A stretch of DNA of 64,000 nt from Isoetes taiwanensis (taxonomy: Eukaryota; Streptophyta; Lycopodiopsida; Isoetales; Isoetaceae), in NCBI GenBank assembly GCA_021234155.1, contig JAJEKV010000146.1, forward strand, positions 620,001 to 684,000. Direction: 5' to 3'. The translations under genes and the position numbers were made by a program. Of this stretch, positions 3,721-49,400 are shown piece after piece (within the stretch, counting starts at the first letter, position 1; the number at the start of each line of letters is the position of its first letter). The notes under the pieces were generated by a model that was given only the letters and a program-made list of their open reading frames with translations, had not been told where the DNA came from and ran no database searches.

Positions 3721-3732
3721 TGGTATCAGAGC
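3721..3732 (+). other. Primer-binding site (Met-tRNA)
   Basis: TGGTATCAGAGC starts one base after the left LTR and matches the 3' end complement of initiator Met-tRNA, the usual primer for plant Copia reverse transcription. Confidence 0.9.
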
Positions 3733-22049: not shown

Positions 22050-22854
22050 CTTTGGTTTGGCCTCATAGGTCCATCAGAGCCAAGGCCGACAATGTAAGTG
22101 ATAACCAAGATTGTTTGACATGGAACTTGGTGAAGAAGAAGATATGTCTGTGGAAGCTATCAACAGGCAGCTGGTACAAATGCGTAACCAGATGTTGCAG
22201 CTTGTGCAATGGGCCACCCCACTCATAAGAGCTTAGGAGTGTGGGCCAATGCCCCTCCACCACAACCTCTCTAGGAGGCAGAACATGGGGACCAACCGGA
22301 ACAGGAGGCAGCATTAGTGGCACGTAGGGACTGAAAAAGGAAGAAAAGAAACAGGAGGAGCCCTAGTCCTTTGAGCTTCAGTCCAAGTAGTGCCCCAGAC
22401 AGAGGATCAGACAGCAATCTAGAGAGTGAATCGGATATCTCTTGTGGCAGGCACAAGGACCGCAAAGCAGAGGTCTATCAGAAGAAGATAAATAGTGCCA
22501 ATGTCTGAAAAACTCGTAAGCTGGGACAGTTTTTAGGGAAGGGCATGCCAGGCATGGAGGCCGAAGCATGATTAGATGGACGAATTTGGGAATTCATATG
22601 GGATGAAGCACATATATGGTGGAAGGGTTACGCAAAGTCAAGAGAAACAATTGCAGGTTTAAGAACTTCAGTAAAGCTTTTCGCAAGCACTAGTTCTACG
22701 ATCCCATACAAGCAGGTAAATATAACAATTCTACCACCTTGAACAAGGGAACTTGTCACTAGCTAAGTACACGGAAAAATTTGAGGCTAGACTGAATATG
22801 CCACGGATAATGGAAAGGCAAGCAGTAGATGGGTACATTGAAGGCTTGAACAAC
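22050..22854 (+). pseudogene. Second Gypsy gag, 5' part
   Basis: Decayed text (DMSVEAINRQLVQMRNQMLQ near 22,140) leads into gag core words: KLGQFLGKGMPGMEAE, WEFIWDEAHIWWKG and LAKYTEKFEARLNMPRIMER. Several stops are present. The frame ends at EGLNN (22,854), where a DNA element is inserted, and continues in frame at 23,441 (HIKRLIRAINPRIVGDAEDK). Confidence 0.75.
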
Positions 22855-23431
22855 TAGGGATAGGTTCAATACGCTGTATGTTTTATATGGAATACGTATG
22901 AATTGTATGATACGGCACATATTTGCCGTATAAAACGTAAAAAATATGACAAAAAAAATTCCGGCGTCGGAAGATTTTTCGCGTACGCGAAAACATCTAA
23001 TTCGCGTACGCGAAAGTTTTTTCGCATACGCGGGAAAAAACAATTTCGCGTACGTTGTTTTCACTGTTTCGCATACGCAAAAGTTTTTTCGCGTACGCGA
23101 AACAATGAAATTCGCGTACACGAAATTTTTTTTTTTCGCGTACGAATTTGAAATTTGAATTTCGCGTACGCGAAATCCTATAAACCGCGTACGCGCGAAA
23201 CTTTTTTCGCATACGCGAGACAGTAAAAGCGGGTAGCCCTTTTTTTTTCGCGCACGCGGTTTTTACTGTTTCGCGTACGCGAAACCTTAACAGAAGGTTT
23301 CGCGTACGCAAAAAAAATTTTTTCCGGCCGGCGACTAAAAAATACGTAAAATACGTTTCTTTCAAAAAAGATGTATTTTTTAACTTTATACGTCAAGAAT
23401 TTAGATTTCGTACGTACAGAACCTATCCCTG
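22855..23431. mobile_element. 577-bp Mutator-like non-autonomous element
   Basis: TTGAACAAC flanks both sides exactly (22,846-22,854; 23,432-23,440), the 9-bp duplication typical of Mutator-like elements. The ends are short inverted repeats (AGGGATAGGTTC at the left, GAACCTATCCCT at the right). Removing the element and one duplicate restores the gag frame. The interior has no gene. It is mostly an array of TTTCGCGTACGCGAAA palindromes with poly-A/T spacers, flanked by AT-rich TACGTA-containing arms. Confidence 0.9.
22974..23310. repeat. Array of TTTCGCGTACGCGAAA palindromes
   Basis: About a dozen full or half copies of TTTCGCG(T/C)(A/G)CGCGAAA, a perfect 16-bp palindrome, occur in ~330 bp. 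Spacers are short A/T runs. Open frames over it encode only the repeat (FRVRE/FAYAK-type peptides) and are not genes. Confidence 0.9.
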
Positions 23432-24441
23432 TTGAACAACCATATCAAAAGGCTTATCCGAGCCATTAATCCGAGGATAGTAGGGGACGCAGAGGACAAA
23501 GCATTGAGTTTAGTGGAGGCAAAACACAGCGAAAAAACAGTCTTTTTACAATAAGGGAAAAGCAACGGGTTCCTACACCCCAAATCAGATAGCTACCGCA
23601 CCAGCAGGCCAGCAGTCATAGGATAAAGAAGACAAGAAAGCCTTATTCAGAAAACAACAAATACTAGGGTCCTCAGCAGGAAGATCAGTAAAGCATTTCT
23701 CGGACAGTATCCATAAGGAAAAGAGAGAAGAATGTATCAAAAAGAAGTTATGCTTCACATGCTTCCAGCTGGGACACCACATTCACGACGGCCCATTCGT
23801 CATGCAAGCAGCTTTGGCAGAACTCGAAGGATGGAAATCATCCATGGAGCTAGACAATGACGAGGAGGAAGAGGAGGCCAGGGACTTCATTGAAGGTGAG
23901 TATAAAATTTGTGTTGCATTTGAAATGAATAGTGTGGGAAGTCACACAACGGTCATAGCAGCAGAGGGAATCATAGATAACAAGCCGTATGTAGTCCTTA
24001 TAGACACAGGCAGCTCCCACAACTTCGCTTCGCCCATGTTGGTAGCATTATTGAAGTATAAGACTCTTAAGTCAAAGATAAGGCCGATTAGTATGGCAAG
24101 TGGGGCAATTCACCATACTAAAGGAGGAAGAGTCAATATCAACATGGCCTAAGCATGGGTGTAAAGGTTATGAATGACCTTATAGTTGGCGTGGAGTTCT
24201 TGAAGCCAGCAAAGGCAATGATAGACTGCGATAAGCATGAGATCTTGATCATGGCACCCAACAACAATTGTTTTGTGGTCAAAGGTAAGGGAATCCCCTC
24301 TATAATGCAGTGCATGTCTTTAAGGAAGTCGTATAGATGCATCTCAAACGATGAAGTTGAGTACATCGTTAGGCAAGAGGGCGTTGAGCCAGACCGTAAG
24401 CATAAATGGGAGGAGGTAAGCTTAGGGCAGTTTCTAAGCTA
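23432..24441 (+). pseudogene. Second Gypsy gag 3' part and retropepsin
   Basis: After the inserted element, gag resumes (HIKRLIRAINPRIVGDAEDK) and reaches a degraded zinc knuckle, CFTCFQLGHHIHDG, near 23,754. The ORF 23,802-24,152 holds an acidic stretch and the aspartic protease motif VLIDTGSSHNF near 23,995. A stop at 24,150 precedes a continuing block, DLIVGVEFLKPAKAMIDCDK, followed by APNNNCFVVKGKGIPS. RT, RNase H and integrase are missing: the element is cut at about 24,441. Confidence 0.8.
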
Positions 24442-40200: not shown

Positions 40201-40795
40201 GCAATGAAAGAATTGTTTCAATGTAACTTTTCAGTAACTGTAAGTTATTAGTTTCTTGATTATCAGGGCTCTGGTGGTGCTGTTTAGAATGTTTGCACAA
40301 GCAAATTATTATCAGCAAGATTAATGCTAAGATTAGAATGTTTGCACAAGCAAATTATTATTAGCAAGATTAATGCTAAGATTAGAATGTTTGCACAAGA
40401 ATAACCAGCAAATTAAAAACGAGGAAAGGGGGGATTATGGCCAAATATAACAAAGTATTAAAGGGGGGATTATAGCCAAATATAACAAGGTATTATTTAT
40501 TAACGAGGGACAGGGTGACTATGGCTAAATTATAACAAGGTATTATCTTAAACAAGGGAAAGAGGGATTATGGCCAAATCATAACAGGGTATTATCTTGT
40601 AAATGAGGAAGTGGGGGATTATGGCCAAATACCCCCATTCTGAAAACTCAGTTTATCCCCCGTTGTTCTACAAAAAATGGGGATTTTATAGGTATTTTTG
40701 GTGGGTATTTTCTGGAGCACATTTTTCGTTGTGTACGTTAATGTGAAGCATTTGTTTGGATTGAACATGTGATGCTAGGCAGAATGAACAATTTT
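37291..40795. other. Intergenic repeats, no recognisable gene
   Basis: AT-rich sequence. 38,560-38,900 consists of degenerate units with GGGGAA(T)ATTAGTAAAAA and GG(A/G)ATT. 40,279-40,400 has 2.5 tandem copies of a ~55-bp unit (GAATGTTTGCACAAGCAAAT). 40,425-40,640 has four units of GGGGGATTATGGCCAAAT(A)TAACAAGGTATTA. A Helitron-like hairpin remnant is at about 38,477. Short open frames at 39,092-39,289 and 39,398-39,673 are hydrophobic and unrecognised. Confidence 0.5.
40279..40640. repeat. Two short tandem arrays
   Basis: The first array (40,279-40,400) repeats a ~55-bp unit beginning AGAATGTTTGCACAAGCAAA. The second (40,425-40,640) repeats AGG(A/G)GGGATTATGGCCAAAT followed by ATAACA(A/G)GGTATTAT about every 55-60 bp. 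Confidence 0.75.
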
Positions 40796-40799
40796 TATC

Positions 40800-41105
40800 T
40801 TCCATGGAATGGTGAGCTCTATCTTCGCGAAGTGGTTTGGGAAAGTGCTGGACAGCAGATTGAAAAGGTGGGCAGAAACAGGAAACTTGAGGGCACAAGG
40901 ACAGGCAGGCTTCAAGCCTGAACACTCAACCACGGATCATCTGGTAACACTTCGGGTGCTAATAGAGCAGAACAGAGCTCAGGGGAAGAAAATAGTATGC
41001 TGCTTTGTGGACTTTAGAAAGGCATTTGACACAGTCCCGAGGGAAAAGCTTCTACAAAGACTGATAGATATGCAGGCACCGAGAGACATGGAGGTGGAAG
41101 GCTAA
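40800..41105 (+). pseudogene. LINE reverse transcriptase fragment
   Basis: The frame VSSIFAKWFGKVLDSRLKRW, GQAGFKPEHSTTDHLVTLRV and CCFVDFRKAFDTVPREKLLQ covers the N-terminal RT blocks of a non-LTR element. FVDFRKAFDTV is the first catalytic-aspartate block. The YADD block and everything downstream are missing: the frame ends at a stop at 41,103-41,105. The clade is not assigned; the type is common in non-seed-plant genomes. Confidence 0.85.
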
Positions 41106-41575
41106 CTTCTCAGGGTAAGATCTGTTGGTCATACTGGCAAACTATATCAATGTAGTAAGGGGTCCTAGTCAGGGTTGCATGAAGGTCGAAGAGATGATCA
41201 AACACATGGAAGGCCTCTTCAGCAGGGAAATCACGAATATGGTTGGCACTGTCGTACCATTGAACAAAGTTGGTGGGCGCCATTGAGCAGAGATGGATGT
41301 AGAAGATGGCTTGGAAGAACTGATAAGAGCCTGGAAAATCGCCTAAGATGGTGAGAGCAATTTTTGGTAAAGGGAAAATGGCAAATGATGTCCCCTTTTT
41401 ATAGACTAAGATTGCCTCGGCTTCCGTGCACAAGGGTTCTTGGAAGAACAGACCTTTGTTCTAAGGCTATGGATCTCCAAATGAGGTACCATGAAGTGCA
41501 AATCTAAGCAAAACAAGTCAAGAAATACTACATGGCAGTTTGTTGGGTCAAATTTCGGCAATCCTGGTCAAACTT
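41106..41575. other. No recognisable gene
   Basis: A minus-strand open frame (41,110-41,433, 107 codons) has no recognised domain. Nothing else is visible. It separates the LINE fragment from the hairpin units. Confidence 0.4.
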
Positions 41576-42281: not shown

Positions 42282-43415
42282 TCACGGCTTCTCTTTGCAA
42301 ATCCTCCTCGCCAAGTGGAGGTCTTTGGGCATGACTGTCACCCACTTGGCGTGGATTGCGCAGAGGTTGCCTTCTTCAAAAAGTTGGATGAGCTCCGCCT
42401 CTGCTACCTCCTGCAGGGCTCGGACCATCAAGGGTGTCACCCTATAGTTGGTCCGAAAGTCCTGCATGATCTCCCAGAGGAGCCGCTCGAACAGCGCCTT
42501 CCTGATAAGGAGATTAGTGCATTGGAAGTGCCTAATCTCCCTAAAGACACGGACGTGCCTTGGAATTAGGTCCATGATGGACCTTCTTCGGTGGCTCCGG
42601 CCATGTTGGCGGTGGCTTGGGCTGGTTCTTTGGCCACCCGCCTTTAACGTACTTCTGTACATTTTGCTTGCAGTACCAATCATTGTACCTCTTCCATCGG
42701 CGAAGGTACTCTTGGTACACCTTCTTTTGTCGCTGGAATTCACGGTCCTGTTTGAGCGTGAATTCCCGCTCGCCCGCCTTCTGCTTCTTCACAACCTTGG
42801 GTGGCTTGGGCCACTTGGGGTATGGTGGGCGGGCGTTGGGGTCTGATGGTTCCCCTGTGTCTTGCTCGGGCTCCTCCTGCTCGTCCCCCGATTCCTCGCT
42901 CTCCTCTTCCTCTTCCTCTTCCTCTGCCTCCTTGTCGGTAGGATCCCGACGAGGTTCCTCAATATGGACCGTCCCCCTTGGGTGGTCCTGGTCCCTCTTG
43001 GACCGCTTCTCCCTCCATCTCGCCTCCTTCTCCCTCTCCCTCTTCTTCCTCTGGGCCCTCTCCTCAGGCCATTCCGCAACCTTCTCCTTGCTCTTCCTCT
43101 TCTTGGAAAGGCCAGCCTCCTGCTCCTGCTGCTGCTGCTGCTGCTCTTCCTGCTGCTCCTACTCCTCCTGGTGCTCCTGCTCCTCCTGATCGGACGACTG
43201 GCCGAAGTGGACGGTCTCGTCCGTCCACTGTGTCTCCACCGAGGAGCTGCTCTGGCCCTCCTCTCGTGGTAGGTGTCGGTGGAACTCGACGACTCCTCCT
43301 CCCTCCCGGGCTTGAGGTGCTCCGGGATCTTCTTGCCAGGACCTGCTGCTGCTGCTGCTATGGAGGGTGTGCGCCTGGGGCTAAACTTCCTAGCTATGCA
43401 TTTGGTGCGCGCCAT
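42282..43415 (-). CDS. Histone H3-like protein with long charged insert
   Basis: The ATG at 43,415 opens [18 protein letters not shown]: after Met this is the H3 tail tip ARTKxxARK, with R2, T3, K4, A7, R8 and K9 kept and Q5, T6 and S10 replaced by C, I and F. In the same frame near the end, 42,570-42,285 is a full H3 histone fold: [15 protein letters not shown], then [49 protein letters not shown] and RRI. Loop 1 has the canonical H3 length, so it is not CENH3-like. In between are ~240 codons. The start frame reads Arg/Ser-rich text with one TGA (42,789-42,791). Codon use (AAG, GAG, GC-rich third bases) instead favours a second frame encoding Gln/Glu/Lys-rich text and [19 protein letters not shown], with a TAG at 43,159-43,161. 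So the gene is either frame-broken (two compensating shifts) or spliced; a possible acceptor, GTGTCTTTAG, lies at the fold boundary. It lies inside an LTR element. Confidence 0.75.
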
Positions 43416-43948
43416 ATCTTACGGTCAGGAAAACTGATTAAGTTAAGCTGGGTATCAAGGAAGAGAGGTTTAGGCAATGTTAGGGAGAAATGGGTGGCAA
43501 GAAAATATTTGAAAAGGAAAGATGCTCTAGGGAATATTCTCTCACATTAATAGCCCTATTAATTAGTCCCCCTTATTAATTATCCCAGTATACATATTTA
43601 TTCGTATATGGTTAATGTTGTATTATACTATGAATAATGGCTTGAAGTCCTAATTATGAATTTGCGCCATTTCTCACCCGGGTCTCGGATCGGGATGATT
43701 CTTCGACCCATTTTGGGTGAAATCTGATACATAATTTTCACTTCAATTTTACTAGAATATTAATTTGACGCATTCTTTTTCCCCCATCTAACACTTAGCC
43801 TATTTTTATGGACCCACTACCTAGAAGAAAATTTTCCCCCTATTTTCGAGGTTCCATAGTGGAAATTTTCATTCCACACCCTATTAGGCCTGTTAGACTA
43901 CTTACTAGGGATATGATCAGTGCTAGTTCTTGGTCAACCAAGAACATC
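43416..43948 (-). other. Leader between PBS and H3-like ORF
   Basis: About 530 bp, AT-rich, with no open frame of note, between the primer-binding site and the ATG at 43,415. In a standard element gag would begin here or slightly further on. Confidence 0.5.
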
Positions 43949-43960
43949 GCTCTGATACCA
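43949..43960 (-). other. Primer-binding site (Met-tRNA), minus strand
   Basis: On the minus strand TGGTATCAGAGC follows the LTR end by one base, matching the initiator Met-tRNA complement. Confidence 0.9.
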
Positions 43961-43961
43961 T

Positions 43962-45567
43962 TGTGACGCTCCCTACAAAATATACGGCGCCCGGCCGTAC
44001 ACTTCGCAGGAAATCCCCCATTCGGTCTTCCGACTGCACAGGGCCTCCATCTATCCCGCACTCCAGGGTACCCCTAGTGCGGGAAGGGGACACGAAGGTG
44101 TCTTGCGCGCCCTTCCCCTATGGGCTCCTATCATAACGGAAGCATAAACAACGTCAGAACTAGCAGTAACAATACATCGAACTACCTCGAAGGGTAGCAC
44201 ATCCATACATCCATAGATACAATAGAGATATACACATGTCGTAAAATATGGGAGCTCCTACCCAAGGCTTGGACTCATGGGGAAGTGGACTGACAGCTAG
44301 GCTTCACGATAGAGCAGACCGAGTCATAATAATGGCGGGGCTGGCTTGAGACAATGGCTAGGGTTGACCACTCCATCCGCCCCTCCTGTGCATACTTTGC
44401 AGATGGGCTAGATCAGGCTCTGGCATGACTCTAGCCTTCCAGATATGCAATCTCATGGTATCACCCATCGAGACTACTCCAGGTTACATCTCCCCGGTCC
44501 GTCGAGGCAGGAAGGGTTGCATCTCCCCTTCCCGGGGTCTAGAGGTTCTACGGGCGGCTAGAGAATCGTGGCGACACACGATTCTTCCCCGACTTAACCC
44601 CCCAAAATAAGAGCCAGGCCGTCACCTGCAGCTCTTGAGGGGCAGGGCAACACCATTGCCCCAGGAGGTGTCGGACCCATGCCCGACCCACACGAAGTGA
44701 CCGGCCATAAGCCTAGTCCACTCTCAGTAGCCACGCTCAGCAGGGACCCTCCCTCCGCATCTCCTCTAGCCCCGTTGTGTAGTGCTGAGTCACATCATAG
44801 CCCCCGAAGCCCGGTGGGTTCCTATGCACATGCCACAATATAATAGGAACTAAAGGGTCTAACTAGGAGCATCACTAAGTAAGGCTACTAGGTCTCTACC
44901 CCCCTTCCCAATACAAGAGAAGTAAACATGATCAACCATCATCACATAACTGCATAATCATGATAATCATCATAATAACATCTAACCTAATCATACATAT
45001 CTAACTTACAGTTAGGGTTCCTTGATTAGGGTTCAATATGTTGAATAAGGGTTCTAGGATGGCTCTACTCTAGATACTAAATACTAACTCATCTGGAGTG
45101 CTAACTTCCAGATGAACTGCTAAGAGCACCACTCCAAATACCTGCTCTCGAAGCGCTCCCTCCTATTCCTGGCGTCTCCATGATCCTCGAAGTGGTCGAA
45201 GTAGCGCTCACTCCAAGATCGTGCACGCACTCTGGGGGTTGTTGCACTAGGCTATGCCACAGCAAACGACGCTCGAAACGGAGTTTCGAGTGCGAAGAAG
45301 GTTCCCAAGGTGTTTGGGCCAGGAAAAAGAGGTCTAGGGTTAGGGTTTAGGTTAATATAGGTTAGGGTCCAGATGGGATGATACGTGGCTCCACGTGGCT
45401 CCAATGGAACATGGCCATGTGGCGGTTGCCCAATAGAATAAAGCCATGTGGACAATGGGCCTTATCCTAAGGTTATCTAAGTTATATACTTAACTTAAAG
45501 TAGACTTGTATAGAGACGGACAGGGAAATATATGTATTTATAGCGTATATTTTCCTGGAACGTCACA
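43962..45567 (-). repeat. 1,606-bp LTR, minus orientation
   Basis: On the minus strand the LTR begins TGTGACGTTCCAGG at 45,567 and ends AGCGTCACA at 43,962, so both ends carry the inverted TGTGACG/CGTCACA. A Met-tRNA primer site follows one base later. A TATA-like TATAAATACATATA lies about 20-40 bp from its 5' end. It is inserted in a Copia RT fragment (45,575-45,735). No partner LTR is present in the window, so the element is truncated or extends through a rearranged 3' end. Confidence 0.8.
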
Positions 45568-45574
45568 TTGAGCC

Positions 45575-45745
45575 TGCTACATATAAATCTCTTCATCTAG
45601 ATTAGCATTCATGAAGGTAGTGTTAACATCCATATGATGAATTTCAAGGTCAAACGCATTTGCAAATGCAAGAAGAATTTGTAAACTAGTTAATTTCACA
45701 ATTGGAGAGAATGTTTTTACATAATCTACACCCTTTCCTAGAGGG
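45575..45745 (-). pseudogene. Copia reverse transcriptase fragment
   Basis: The minus strand reads GKGVDYVKTFSPIVKLTSLQ, LLAFANAFDLEIHHMDVNTT and FMNANLDEEIYM: the Copia RT block containing the first catalytic Asp. It is cut on one side by the 1.6-kb LTR and on the other at about 45,745. It is only the insertion target. Confidence 0.9.
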
Positions 45746-46699: not shown

Positions 46700-49400
46700 T
46701 TGGGAATCATGGTGCCTTGCATGAAGCCTCCATCTGAAGTTCCTTCCAACTCTTCCTTGCTTTCTTCACCTTATGTTTTCCAAGTTCTATAACAGGCTTC
46801 AGCCGTGACAAGCTAGTACCACAATTCACCTCCAAGGTAAGTTCAGGTAGACTTGATATATTAGTGCTCGTGCCAACTATGTCATCCATCTTCTCAAGTC
46901 TAAAGTCAAGCTGCCTCATGAGAGAATCAGTTGCAACTAAAATGTTGGGATCTTTTTGAGCCCTAGACATCACTCTAGCAATTACCGCCTCCAAGGAGGC
47001 CTGAGTCTTGTTCAAGTCCACTTGACTGCTTGTTTGCAAGGGAGACTCTTCCCCTAGGCGTACTACCTCAAGCACCTCCGATCCCTGGTCTCCACAACTC
47101 TCTTTCACGGCCAGATTGCTTGTGTGGTCCATGCCCCACCTATTGTCCCATATTGGGAACCCAACACCTGTAAGAGATCTTGATCCCTGTAATTGCCAAG
47201 CATTTGCATAACTTTCACCTGATGCTTACATAGATTACCCTTGGCTCCCCAAGGGCAATCTTCTTGTGTGCTCCAGCAACAAAGTACGGGCCCTGTCCAA
47301 GAGTGCGCTCGGGTTTGCACTTCAGCCTCGCCCTCCTCGAAGTTGGTAATTGTGACTTGTTCGTCGGCAATTCTCGGCGCCTCTAATTAAGACTCTACTA
47401 TTTGTTCCCTCGTGAGGTGTTCACTACAAATCCATGTTCCTTCATAGACCTAGAACATAGCTATATATCAATCATTTGCAAGGTAAATTTGCAAGGTAAA
47501 TAGTGATATGTAAATGTTACCTCATATAAGCCATGTGTGTCTCCACAGAGCAACCAGTCAATTCTCCTGCCTCGAAGTGCACGTTTACATATGCCTAGGC
47601 GCAACTTAAGGGCAGCATGCCATGCCTCTATGGCAGCATTGGTCTCTTGATTGGAGTGCATGTACATTCTTGTAGCCAATACCCATTCACAAATGTTCTT
47701 AGTCCACTCCTTACTCATGTAGGCCGACAATTTAGGGTATTGAGGATACTTCCTCACCAACTCTTCCAATCTCTTGATAGCCTCTTTCCTAACAGCTTTC
47801 CTGTACTCATGACCATACTCATTGTCCCCTACAGGACCCTCTGTCTTGTACATTATATTCCCTAGCTCCTTGAACATTTCATTTCTATGCACCTTACTCC
47901 TTACATTTTTGCTTAGCCACTTAATCCAGGCTCTTCTCACATGCCAAATGCATATTTGCACAGGCACGTTTGGGAAAACCTACAAGTGTTAGTGTTAGAA
48001 AGTATGCAACAAAGTATAACTTGGGGAAAAATTGCCAGGCATCACTTACATTTTTTACCGCCTTGATTTCAGCATCAGCATCGTCAGTTATGATGCAAGA
48101 AGGTGCCAGTCCGGATCATCATGACATAATGAATCCTTTAGTGCTTTCAACCACTTAGTTATAGCCCTACTTTTTTGAGAATTGGTTATGACATATGCCA
48201 ATGGCATGCCATTGCAATGGTCATCGAAGGCAATGAGTGTAAAAAGATAGTACCTGCATAATTGAAACCAATAGCTGTCATTGCATCTTGAATTTTAAAC
48301 CAATAGATGTCATTGCATGATTGAAACCAGTTGCTATAGCCATTTTAAATGGACTATGGAAAAGATCTAGAATGGAAATGAACTCTTAGAGTGTATCTCT
48401 TGTCATTAGTTTTGAAGGTTGCATCCATGCAAATGGCCCTATTCTTTCCAAACTTCAGCATTGCCTCTCTTTGGATTGGAGTCATCACTCCCAATTGGAA
48501 CGTGTCACCATGTTCATACAAGAACACTGACTCTAGATGTCTAGTGGGAAGGTCTTCATGTAGCTTCCAAGTGTTTCTAACAACACTCTTCTCAATGTTG
48601 TAAACATCCCGGATCTTCAGCATGTCATCCCTACACAAACTATCCTTGCCATGCACATCTACTTTAAATCTCCACCTCTCCTCGTGCATGTTCATAACAC
48701 TTCGTGGGGTGTGCCAATGCACGAGCTTTTCTCTAACCCATTCCCTCAATTCCTGTGAGATCCACGGTGCTAGCTTGAATCGATACTTTTCTACGCCAAC
48801 AAATTTACCATGGCAAGGCTCACCTTGGAGATTTCTATGCTCAAACCCATAATAAGTAACTTGAGAGCATTCTGGGAGAAGGTAGAGTTGCCTAATGGTA
48901 AAATGGCATTGGCAGCCCCTACGCACACTCTCACCCCTCTCAACTCTTTTCCTGCGTGTGCCAGGTTGACGTGGTCCATCAGCAACCACGTGAGTGTTCA
49001 AAGTCTTGTCCTGGGGACCATATGTGCACCAGTACCTAGTGCATGTACATCTAAGAATTAAATATACTTCTGCTACAATGTTTTCTACTACAGAAACAAC
49101 AACAACAACAGTAAACTAGAGGATAGGGTTTTTTAAATACATACCTTTTCATAGTCAAATAAGAATCCCTGGTTGGCCTCTTTAGCACCCTCTCGGGATT
49201 GGAACTCCTTAAGTAGAAGCTGCACGGTGCCACACAATTTCTTTGCTCTCCAAGAATGAAGTCTTCAACCCGGTTTGTTGGGAGGTAGCAGGTCCACACA
49301 AGCATTTCTCCACCTCCCACGCACATGGTGCTCTTTCCGAAACCCGGTGTAGGTTGTTTGGGTCGAAAAATGCCATTAGGGGTGACTCCACATGTATTTC
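46700..49400 (-). pseudogene. MULE transposase gene with SWIM zinc finger
   Basis: A spliced minus-strand gene. An N-terminal segment around 49,326-49,145 (MCVGGGEMLVWTCY...) has a good donor after YLTMKR. The main exon runs from 49,050 to about 48,362 (RYWCTYGPQDKTLNTHV, GCQCHFTI, KSVVRNTWKLHEDLP) and ends with the first catalytic Asp in ICMDATFKTND. The next (about 48,250-48,045) has FTLIAFDDHCNGMPLAYVIT and, after a one-base frameshift near 48,105, the second Asp (IITDDADAEIKAV). Then VPVQICIWHVRRAWIKWLSK (from about 47,980) leads to the third acidic residue in TNAAIEAWHAALK. A SWIM finger (CPWGAKGNLCKHQVKV) is near 47,240, then a C-terminal tail to 46,707. It cuts and inserts element DNA in the nucleus. 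One clear frameshift makes this copy probably inactive. Confidence 0.85.

Follow-up and report, generated by a model that had tools for sequence, protein, structure and literature searches.

A selected, giant-tail histone H3 gene carried by Ty3/gypsy retrotransposons of Isoetes taiwanensis

What kind of gene sets the tip of a histone H3 tail some 290 codons ahead of an H3 fold, and in what setting would such a gene be kept? The question is raised by 64,000 nucleotides of Isoetes taiwanensis DNA (contig JAJEKV010000146.1, positions 620,001 to 684,000; hereafter the window), in which an initial annotation had noticed an H3-like protein with a long charged insert and had left it between a live giant-tail H3, a spliced H3 and a broken copy. 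We find that the window copy is broken, that its relatives elsewhere in the genome are giant-tail H3s encoded in one frame, and that this H3 is a selected gene of chromovirus-type (Ty3/gypsy) retrotransposons, in which it is the first open reading frame (ORF), between the primer site and gag. That we are dealing with a retrotransposon-carried H3 gene is, in our judgement, close to certain; what the initial annotation overlooked is that the gene belongs to a family of long terminal repeat (LTR) retrotransposons whose H3 folds number in the thousands in this genome.

The window gene lies on the minus strand at 42282..43415, and was compared by tblastn with an intact relative of the same type, termed C (L013:4816-5949, minus strand). 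Its tip of ten residues (43386..43415) is followed by Phe and reads A1 R2 T3 K4 ... R8 K9 F10, just as had been described, and the H3 histone fold (42285..42548) scores 75.4 bits against Pfam Histone PF00125 (E 5.9e-21, cut-off 26.4) and ends at a stop codon. Tip and fold do share one frame, -2, about 290 codons apart. The insert between them is in frame -1: positions 43275-42559 encode a Glu/Lys/Gln-rich tail and a W/Y-rich segment with 68% identity to the C-type relative over 241 columns (E 1.8e-119) and one stop. Thus, of the two readings of the insert first offered, the Glu/Lys/Gln-rich one is coding and the Arg/Ser-rich one is out of frame, and because of the two frame changes and the stop the window gene is a broken copy. 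Loop 1 has the canonical length in the alignment, as first reported, but F84-Q85 is V-T; over 89 positions the fold is 57.3% identical to canonical H3 of the same genome. The DNA of the window copy resembles 39 other places in the genome at 75-89% (best 40 of 1,903 candidates, window included), one short second piece matching at 92%, and because of these relatives a chance origin is excluded.

In relatives of type C and of a second type, D, the parts that are out of register in the window fall into line. These proteins begin with MARTKQTARK or MARTKQTYRK, followed by some 270-330 residues of charged tail and, at the C terminus, an H3 fold. Tip, tail and fold occupy a single open frame in 28 of 42 copies (11/22 C, 17/20 D), all chosen for long frames and those of D also because most of the protein was matched, and in 22 of the 28 no Met of the frame precedes that of the tip. 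The initial annotation had proposed a genome search for this tip-insert-fold order and had asked whether homologues might never join tip and fold; they do join them, and with one-frame relatives at hand no splicing is needed. It had also taken known H3 tails to be about 40 residues long, which is incorrect: tails of 170 and of more than 520 residues are given for cenH3 in a review (PMC9145170).

To understand where these genes reside, we followed the DNA around copies of four families: A (L001-L004) and B (L005-L008), which together make up eight long-frame copies, C, represented by six window-like copies, and D, found beside one C copy. One element each of A, B and D has the order LTR, primer binding site (PBS), H3, ORF2, gag, pol, LTR. 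Both LTRs are in place in each, with identities of 91.1% (A), 96.7% (B) and 96.9% (D) when the separate pieces are compared, and the PBS TGGTATCAGAGC, which we take to be of the initiator-Met tRNA type, adjoins the 5′ LTR in all three. Target duplications of 5 bp flank the B (GTGGC) and D (CTAGC) elements and were not established for A. The D element (C908:3083553-3096960) runs from LTR and PBS through an H3 of 417 amino acids from its Met (449-residue frame) and an ORF2 of 511 (532-residue frame) to gag-protease, reverse transcriptase (RT), RNase H-integrase-chromodomain and the second LTR, with Pfam matches to gag (64.6 bits), RT (111.4 bits), RNase H, integrase and an in-frame Chromo domain (40.9 bits); its protease matches are under the Pfam cut-offs. 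The A element has gag (59.5 bits) and parts of RT and integrase, and the B element has RT (134.5 bits), RNase H, an integrase zinc domain and a Chromo domain (35.2 bits). For C, a 5′ half with gag and parts of RT and integrase was seen (L009, L010), and no 3′ LTR was found in the fetched C flanks. One might instead suppose a multi-copy family of host H3 variants that merely lies among repeats, an idea to which the one-frame ORFs beginning with MARTKQTARK lend something; the recurrence of LTR, PBS, target duplication, ORF2, gag and pol in fixed order and at fixed distance argues against it, and we regard it as scarcely credible.

The fixed distances can be read from the genes that follow. ORF2, of about 440-510 amino acids (L061 8197-9729, minus; L005 2906-4234, minus; L004 2779-4284, minus; L010 5634-6953, plus), is kept across the families with 24-86% identity to the B copy. 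Among the matches listed, 35 of 90 B-type ORF2 are preceded, within 6 kb and in the same orientation, by one of the 150 listed H3 folds; in 32 of these pairs the two are 170-327 bases apart, and no other arrangement of H3 and ORF2 occurs within 8 kb. Likewise, 20 of 86 listed D-type gags have one of the 94 listed D-type H3s upstream, at 2,457-2,932 bases in 19 cases, and no other arrangement of the two is found within 12 kb among these matches. ORF2 has no Pfam match above cut-off, its best PDB sequence match has E 0.47 and its best Foldseek hit E 2.4; an AlphaFold2 model (pLDDT 55.7) shows repeated units of a beta-hairpin and a helix. A second, H2A-like histone at this position is ruled out, since the model is without a histone fold and no Pfam match exceeds the cut-off.

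Is the H3 used by the elements that carry it? We counted nonsynonymous and synonymous differences per site (pN/pS, Nei-Gojobori) over fold codons 46-133 in copies chosen for long frames, and obtained fold pN/pS values of 0.010 for A (n=4), 0.048 for B (n=4), 0.094 for C (n=22) and 0.085 for D (n=20), with median dN/dS of 0.007, 0.027, 0.048 and 0.054, respectively, at a within-family pS of 0.25-0.51. The window copy compared with L009 gives 0.20. By region, pN/pS in D (17 copies) is 0.000 in the tip, 0.321 in the tail, 0.140 in the W/Y segment and 0.111 in the fold; the corresponding values in C (11 copies) are 0.261, 0.295, 0.200 and 0.111. Such strong purifying selection on the fold implies use by the element, and suggests that these jumping genes may use a histone of their own. 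This bears directly on the notion of a passenger, a host H3 gene caught once and spread without use. LTR elements do pick up host domains, as one survey describes (PMC9289625), yet fold pN/pS of 0.010-0.094 at the pS given above strongly disfavours a passenger, as does the retention of H3 upstream of ORF2 or gag in four diverged families; we consider it very improbable.

The fold itself gives further indications. PF00125 scores of family proteins are 142.6 (A), 144.1 (B), 91.0 (C) and 93.3 (D), against the same cut-off as above, and the PDB entry that the D-type protein resembles most is H3.3. Mean fold identity to canonical H3 of the same genome is 0.886 in A, 0.85 in B, 0.642 in C and 0.558 in D. 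R83, C110, H113, K115, V117 and D123 are kept in all 50 A-D copies compared. Judged by a list of H3-H3 and DNA-contact residues, A and B keep the tabulated positions save for T107A in both families, K64R in B, F for Y41 in three of four B copies, and K42 in A, which one canonical copy has as well; C and D also keep R69 (D 19/20), R72 (C 19/22) and R116 (C 20/22). In an H3 tree, such as the initial annotation had proposed, A and B stand beside canonical H3, C and D each form a firm group (99/99), and the deeper order is unsure; there may have been one capture or several.

The long variable tail of C and D is shared with CENH3, the centromeric H3, which in plants also starts with MARTK. The two families further share H53 and F54 with Arabidopsis HTR12, as well as A65 and T85 with few exceptions and L119 in most copies. 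They differ from CENH3 in that the longer loop 1 with W84, a feature of plant CENH3, is not found in the alignment and sites of C and D, where V stands for the W84 of HTR12. No grouping of HTR12 with C or D appears in the tree, which includes this single, long-branched CENH3, and no host CENH3 was found with two search patterns, the first giving 23 matches versus 28 in a backward control. A CENH3 origin of C and D, with shared residues on its side and no tree support, is a possibility.

On the strength of these sequence comparisons, we propose that the element H3 enters chromatin and that its ARTK...ARK tip probably helps targeting or blunts silencing. The H3 protein would be made from the element's RNA, pair with host H4, and enter nucleosomes at the target chromatin or on the new DNA copy. 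The long stalk could carry the tip outward, where K4 and K9 methylases and readers might recognise it, although it lacks the S10 switch; if the chromodomain of the same element, or a host factor, then bound the tip, integration might be guided or silencing weakened. Overall, we think this explanation likely to be right. Of its parts, the action of the H3 in chromatin seems to us somewhat better than an even prospect, and the link between chromodomain and tip less likely than not.

Several observations weigh against this proposal. The window copy itself cannot make a giant-tail H3 protein, and the AlphaFold2 model of the C-type protein is of low confidence (pLDDT 55.1). In C and D, V-T replaces F84-Q85 (21 of the 22 C copies have the T), and D carries P63 and A109, with loss of R63 and L109; V84 in both families and the two changes in D mean that nucleosome entry is not certain. 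The ARTK tip is absent from all eight A and B copies read, which have another N-terminal part in its place, and thus is not needed by the whole group. Among the matches listed, 55 of 90 ORF2 and 66 of 86 gag have no H3 nearby; these being the best 90 of 7,250 and the best 86 of 22,894 candidates, the H3-paired shares are lower bounds, and H3-less relatives are neither shown nor excluded by them. The low pN/pS values come from copies selected for long frames. Finally, the A chromodomain stretch reaches 20.2 bits, below the 25.1 cut-off, and the B chromodomain, above its cut-off, is out of frame with the integrase.

The chromodomain of D, which is in frame, deserves separate consideration. It reads ELILDKAFKKTRRSEFLQYLVKWKHLPVEDATW, and in our alignment to HP1 I and L stand at the cage positions of Y24 and Y48, with W45 retained; by our reading it is a type II chromodomain. 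The binding partner of this type is stated as unknown in two publications (PMC6317226, PMC3350952), so binding of methylated K9 is not implied, which also counts against our proposal. A bolder variant of the proposal can be put forward: giant-tail H3 would sit in nucleosomes and the element's own integrase chromodomain would read the element's tip or tail, not host H3K9me. Integration would then follow the element's histone; we regard this variant as rather unlikely, if worth stating. For the type II chromodomains of plants, the element H3 is a definite candidate as binding partner.

The tip is where a different role comes into view. In D it is present at 19 of 21 places, and in C at 15 of 22 loci. 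In 36 tips, found with a filter that prescribed or restricted letters one to five and residues 8-9, residue 10 is P in 23, Y in nine, T in three, F in one and S in none, residues 5-6 are QT in 32, and residues 7-9 are ARK in 29 and YRK in seven; the short canonical tail ARTKQTARKSTGGKAPRK... is not found after any of them. The loss of S10 first noted in the window thus extends to the family. The 36 tips are written in 31 different codon sequences, as expected of a protein in use, and in the 17 D copies, all of which passed the tip filter, the tip has pN 0.000 at pS 0.513. Keeping the residues around K4 and K9, dropping the rest of the canonical tail, never having Ser at position 10 and holding the D tip unchanged would fit a decoy, soluble or chromatin-bound, whose tip occupies host K4/K9 writers and readers and blunts silencing, integration being unguided. 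A parasite histone, CpBV-H4, alters host expression via its N-terminal tail according to PMC5423620. However, a decoy does not require so constrained a fold, with conserved H3-H3 and H4 contacts, and A and B copies are read without the tip; we view a decoy as possible and not probable.

A structural role in the particle is also conceivable, in which H3, by itself or together with host H4, would be a nucleoprotein that packs the RNA or the DNA copy of the element. In its favour, H3 is encoded before ORF2 or gag in every pair among the matches listed, and A and B show either the usual residue or a conservative change at the DNA contacts tabulated. However, the tail is mixed acidic and basic and not simply basic, a CCHC motif is already present in gag (read by eye, its Pfam score being below cut-off), and the conserved MARTKQTARK tip would be unexplained, which makes this role improbable in our view. 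An H3 that enters chromatin is the reading we prefer.

How widespread are these genes? Genome-wide numbers were obtained with exact patterns over 1,658,258,908 bases in 1,110 contigs; the protein, DNA and family searches score best candidates only. Exact NLCAIHAKR cores occur at 1,090 + 1,074 = 2,164 places and exact ATG-initiated MARTKxxARK tips at 633 + 639 = 1,272, compared with 12 + 5 = 17 canonical ARKxTGGKAP tails (control 0 for all three), such that at least 1,255 tips are without a canonical tail of that form. The placement of the 1,272 tips in elements is extrapolated from the fetched copies. Among the best 150 of 8,705 candidates in a Pfam profile search, 15 match from model position 2 like canonical H3, and the remaining 135 match from later positions, with open frames of 108-494 amino acids. 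Tandem C-type H3 units of about 2.44 kb, 93.8-94.7% alike, were seen at L014 1-7332 (C1047:8836500-8846000), and on contig C217 tips at 120970, 126779 and 132560 follow one another at intervals of about 5.8 kb, so the genome may contain arrays of H3 genes that derive from the elements. Of three places fetched from the CENH3 pattern search, L068 and L070 (C974:19171950-19172750, C941:656250-657100) belong to a further H3-like family, E, which is more diverged, has FQ(R/W)STNFLIP and resembles the others in its W/Y segment; both copies are broken. The third, L069, is a broken D-like copy.

The H3 elements share with plant chromoviruses the LTR ends TGT...ACA, the tRNA primer site, gag, RT, RNase H, integrase and Chromo domain, and differ in their length of about 13 kb and in two ORFs ahead of gag, the first being the giant-tail H3. 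A histone domain is not named in the available text of two surveys of plant retroelements (PMC6317226, PMC9289625). The second describes a Phalaenopsis gypsy element with an ORF of the AlkB-type 2-oxoglutarate-dependent dioxygenase class, likewise an additional ORF of host type kept over replication rounds, although an RNA demethylase is encoded there and a core histone in Isoetes. Viral histones (bracovirus H4, single H3s of large DNA viruses, Marseillevirus doublets) are also parasite-encoded, and some of their tails are extended and changed, as here; they belong to DNA viruses, whereas the H3 described here is on an LTR retroelement, and the words retrotransposon and retrovirus have 0 occurrences in the main text of a review of them (PMC9145170). 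A single scan of viral contigs, with the D-type protein as query, gave no match, and a literature search whose coverage excluded preprints and most subscription journals found no retroelement-encoded core histone, which does not prove that none has been described.

Few host genes are guarded as closely as those for histones. A retrotransposon lineage with a selected core histone, in a genome with more than 2,000 exact H3 cores, broadens the notion of a transposon gene and points to direct action of a mobile element on chromatin. For annotators there is a warning: according to the I. taiwanensis genome paper (PMC8566536), where the main text has 0 occurrences of 'histone', the repeat library was purged of repeats resembling plant proteins, and such a filter could drop H3-bearing elements.

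The surroundings of the window gene show what has become of its element. Upstream on the minus strand is the 5′ LTR, TGTGACGTTCC ... GCGTCACA (43962..45567), recognised by its start motif and by its end beside the PBS, which is an exact string at 43949..43960, one base from the LTR end; the same LTR-PBS order is seen in L004, L005 and L013. Positions 43138-45497 align at 87% with L009, and the LTR blast alignments with L009, L011 and L012 end at 45497; the last 70 bases to 45567 rest on the TGTGACGTTCC motif and on L010 and L011, whose LTRs start in the same way. Downstream, the start of ORF2 with an internal stop lies at 41092..41316 (minus strand; 32% over 75 columns to D-type ORF2 by tblastn, E 3.3e-10, and a DNA match to L010), where the element is cut off. 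At this end begins a fragment like the reverse transcriptase of a long interspersed nuclear element (40788..41105, plus strand), by our reading of FRKAFDTVPREKLLQRL in its ORF. No gag-pol match lies next to the window H3 gene and no second copy of the LTR was found within the window, such that the gag-pol and 3′ LTR of a chromovirus are both missing from this copy: it is a decayed Ty3/gypsy element, truncated near 41.1 kb.

Beyond the LTR, at 45568-45700 (minus strand), the H3 element seemingly sits inside a stretch of Ty1/copia-type reverse transcriptase, by our reading of ...FMNANLDEEIYM. Another element has left a gypsy gag-pol fragment at 22407-24406 (plus strand) that is 32-42% like the gag-pol of the H3 elements, and PBS-like strings also occur at 3721 and 62953. 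A 253-residue open frame at 48354-49115 (minus strand) has an end, AICMDATFKTN, that by eye resembles a transposase of the Mutator-like element type.
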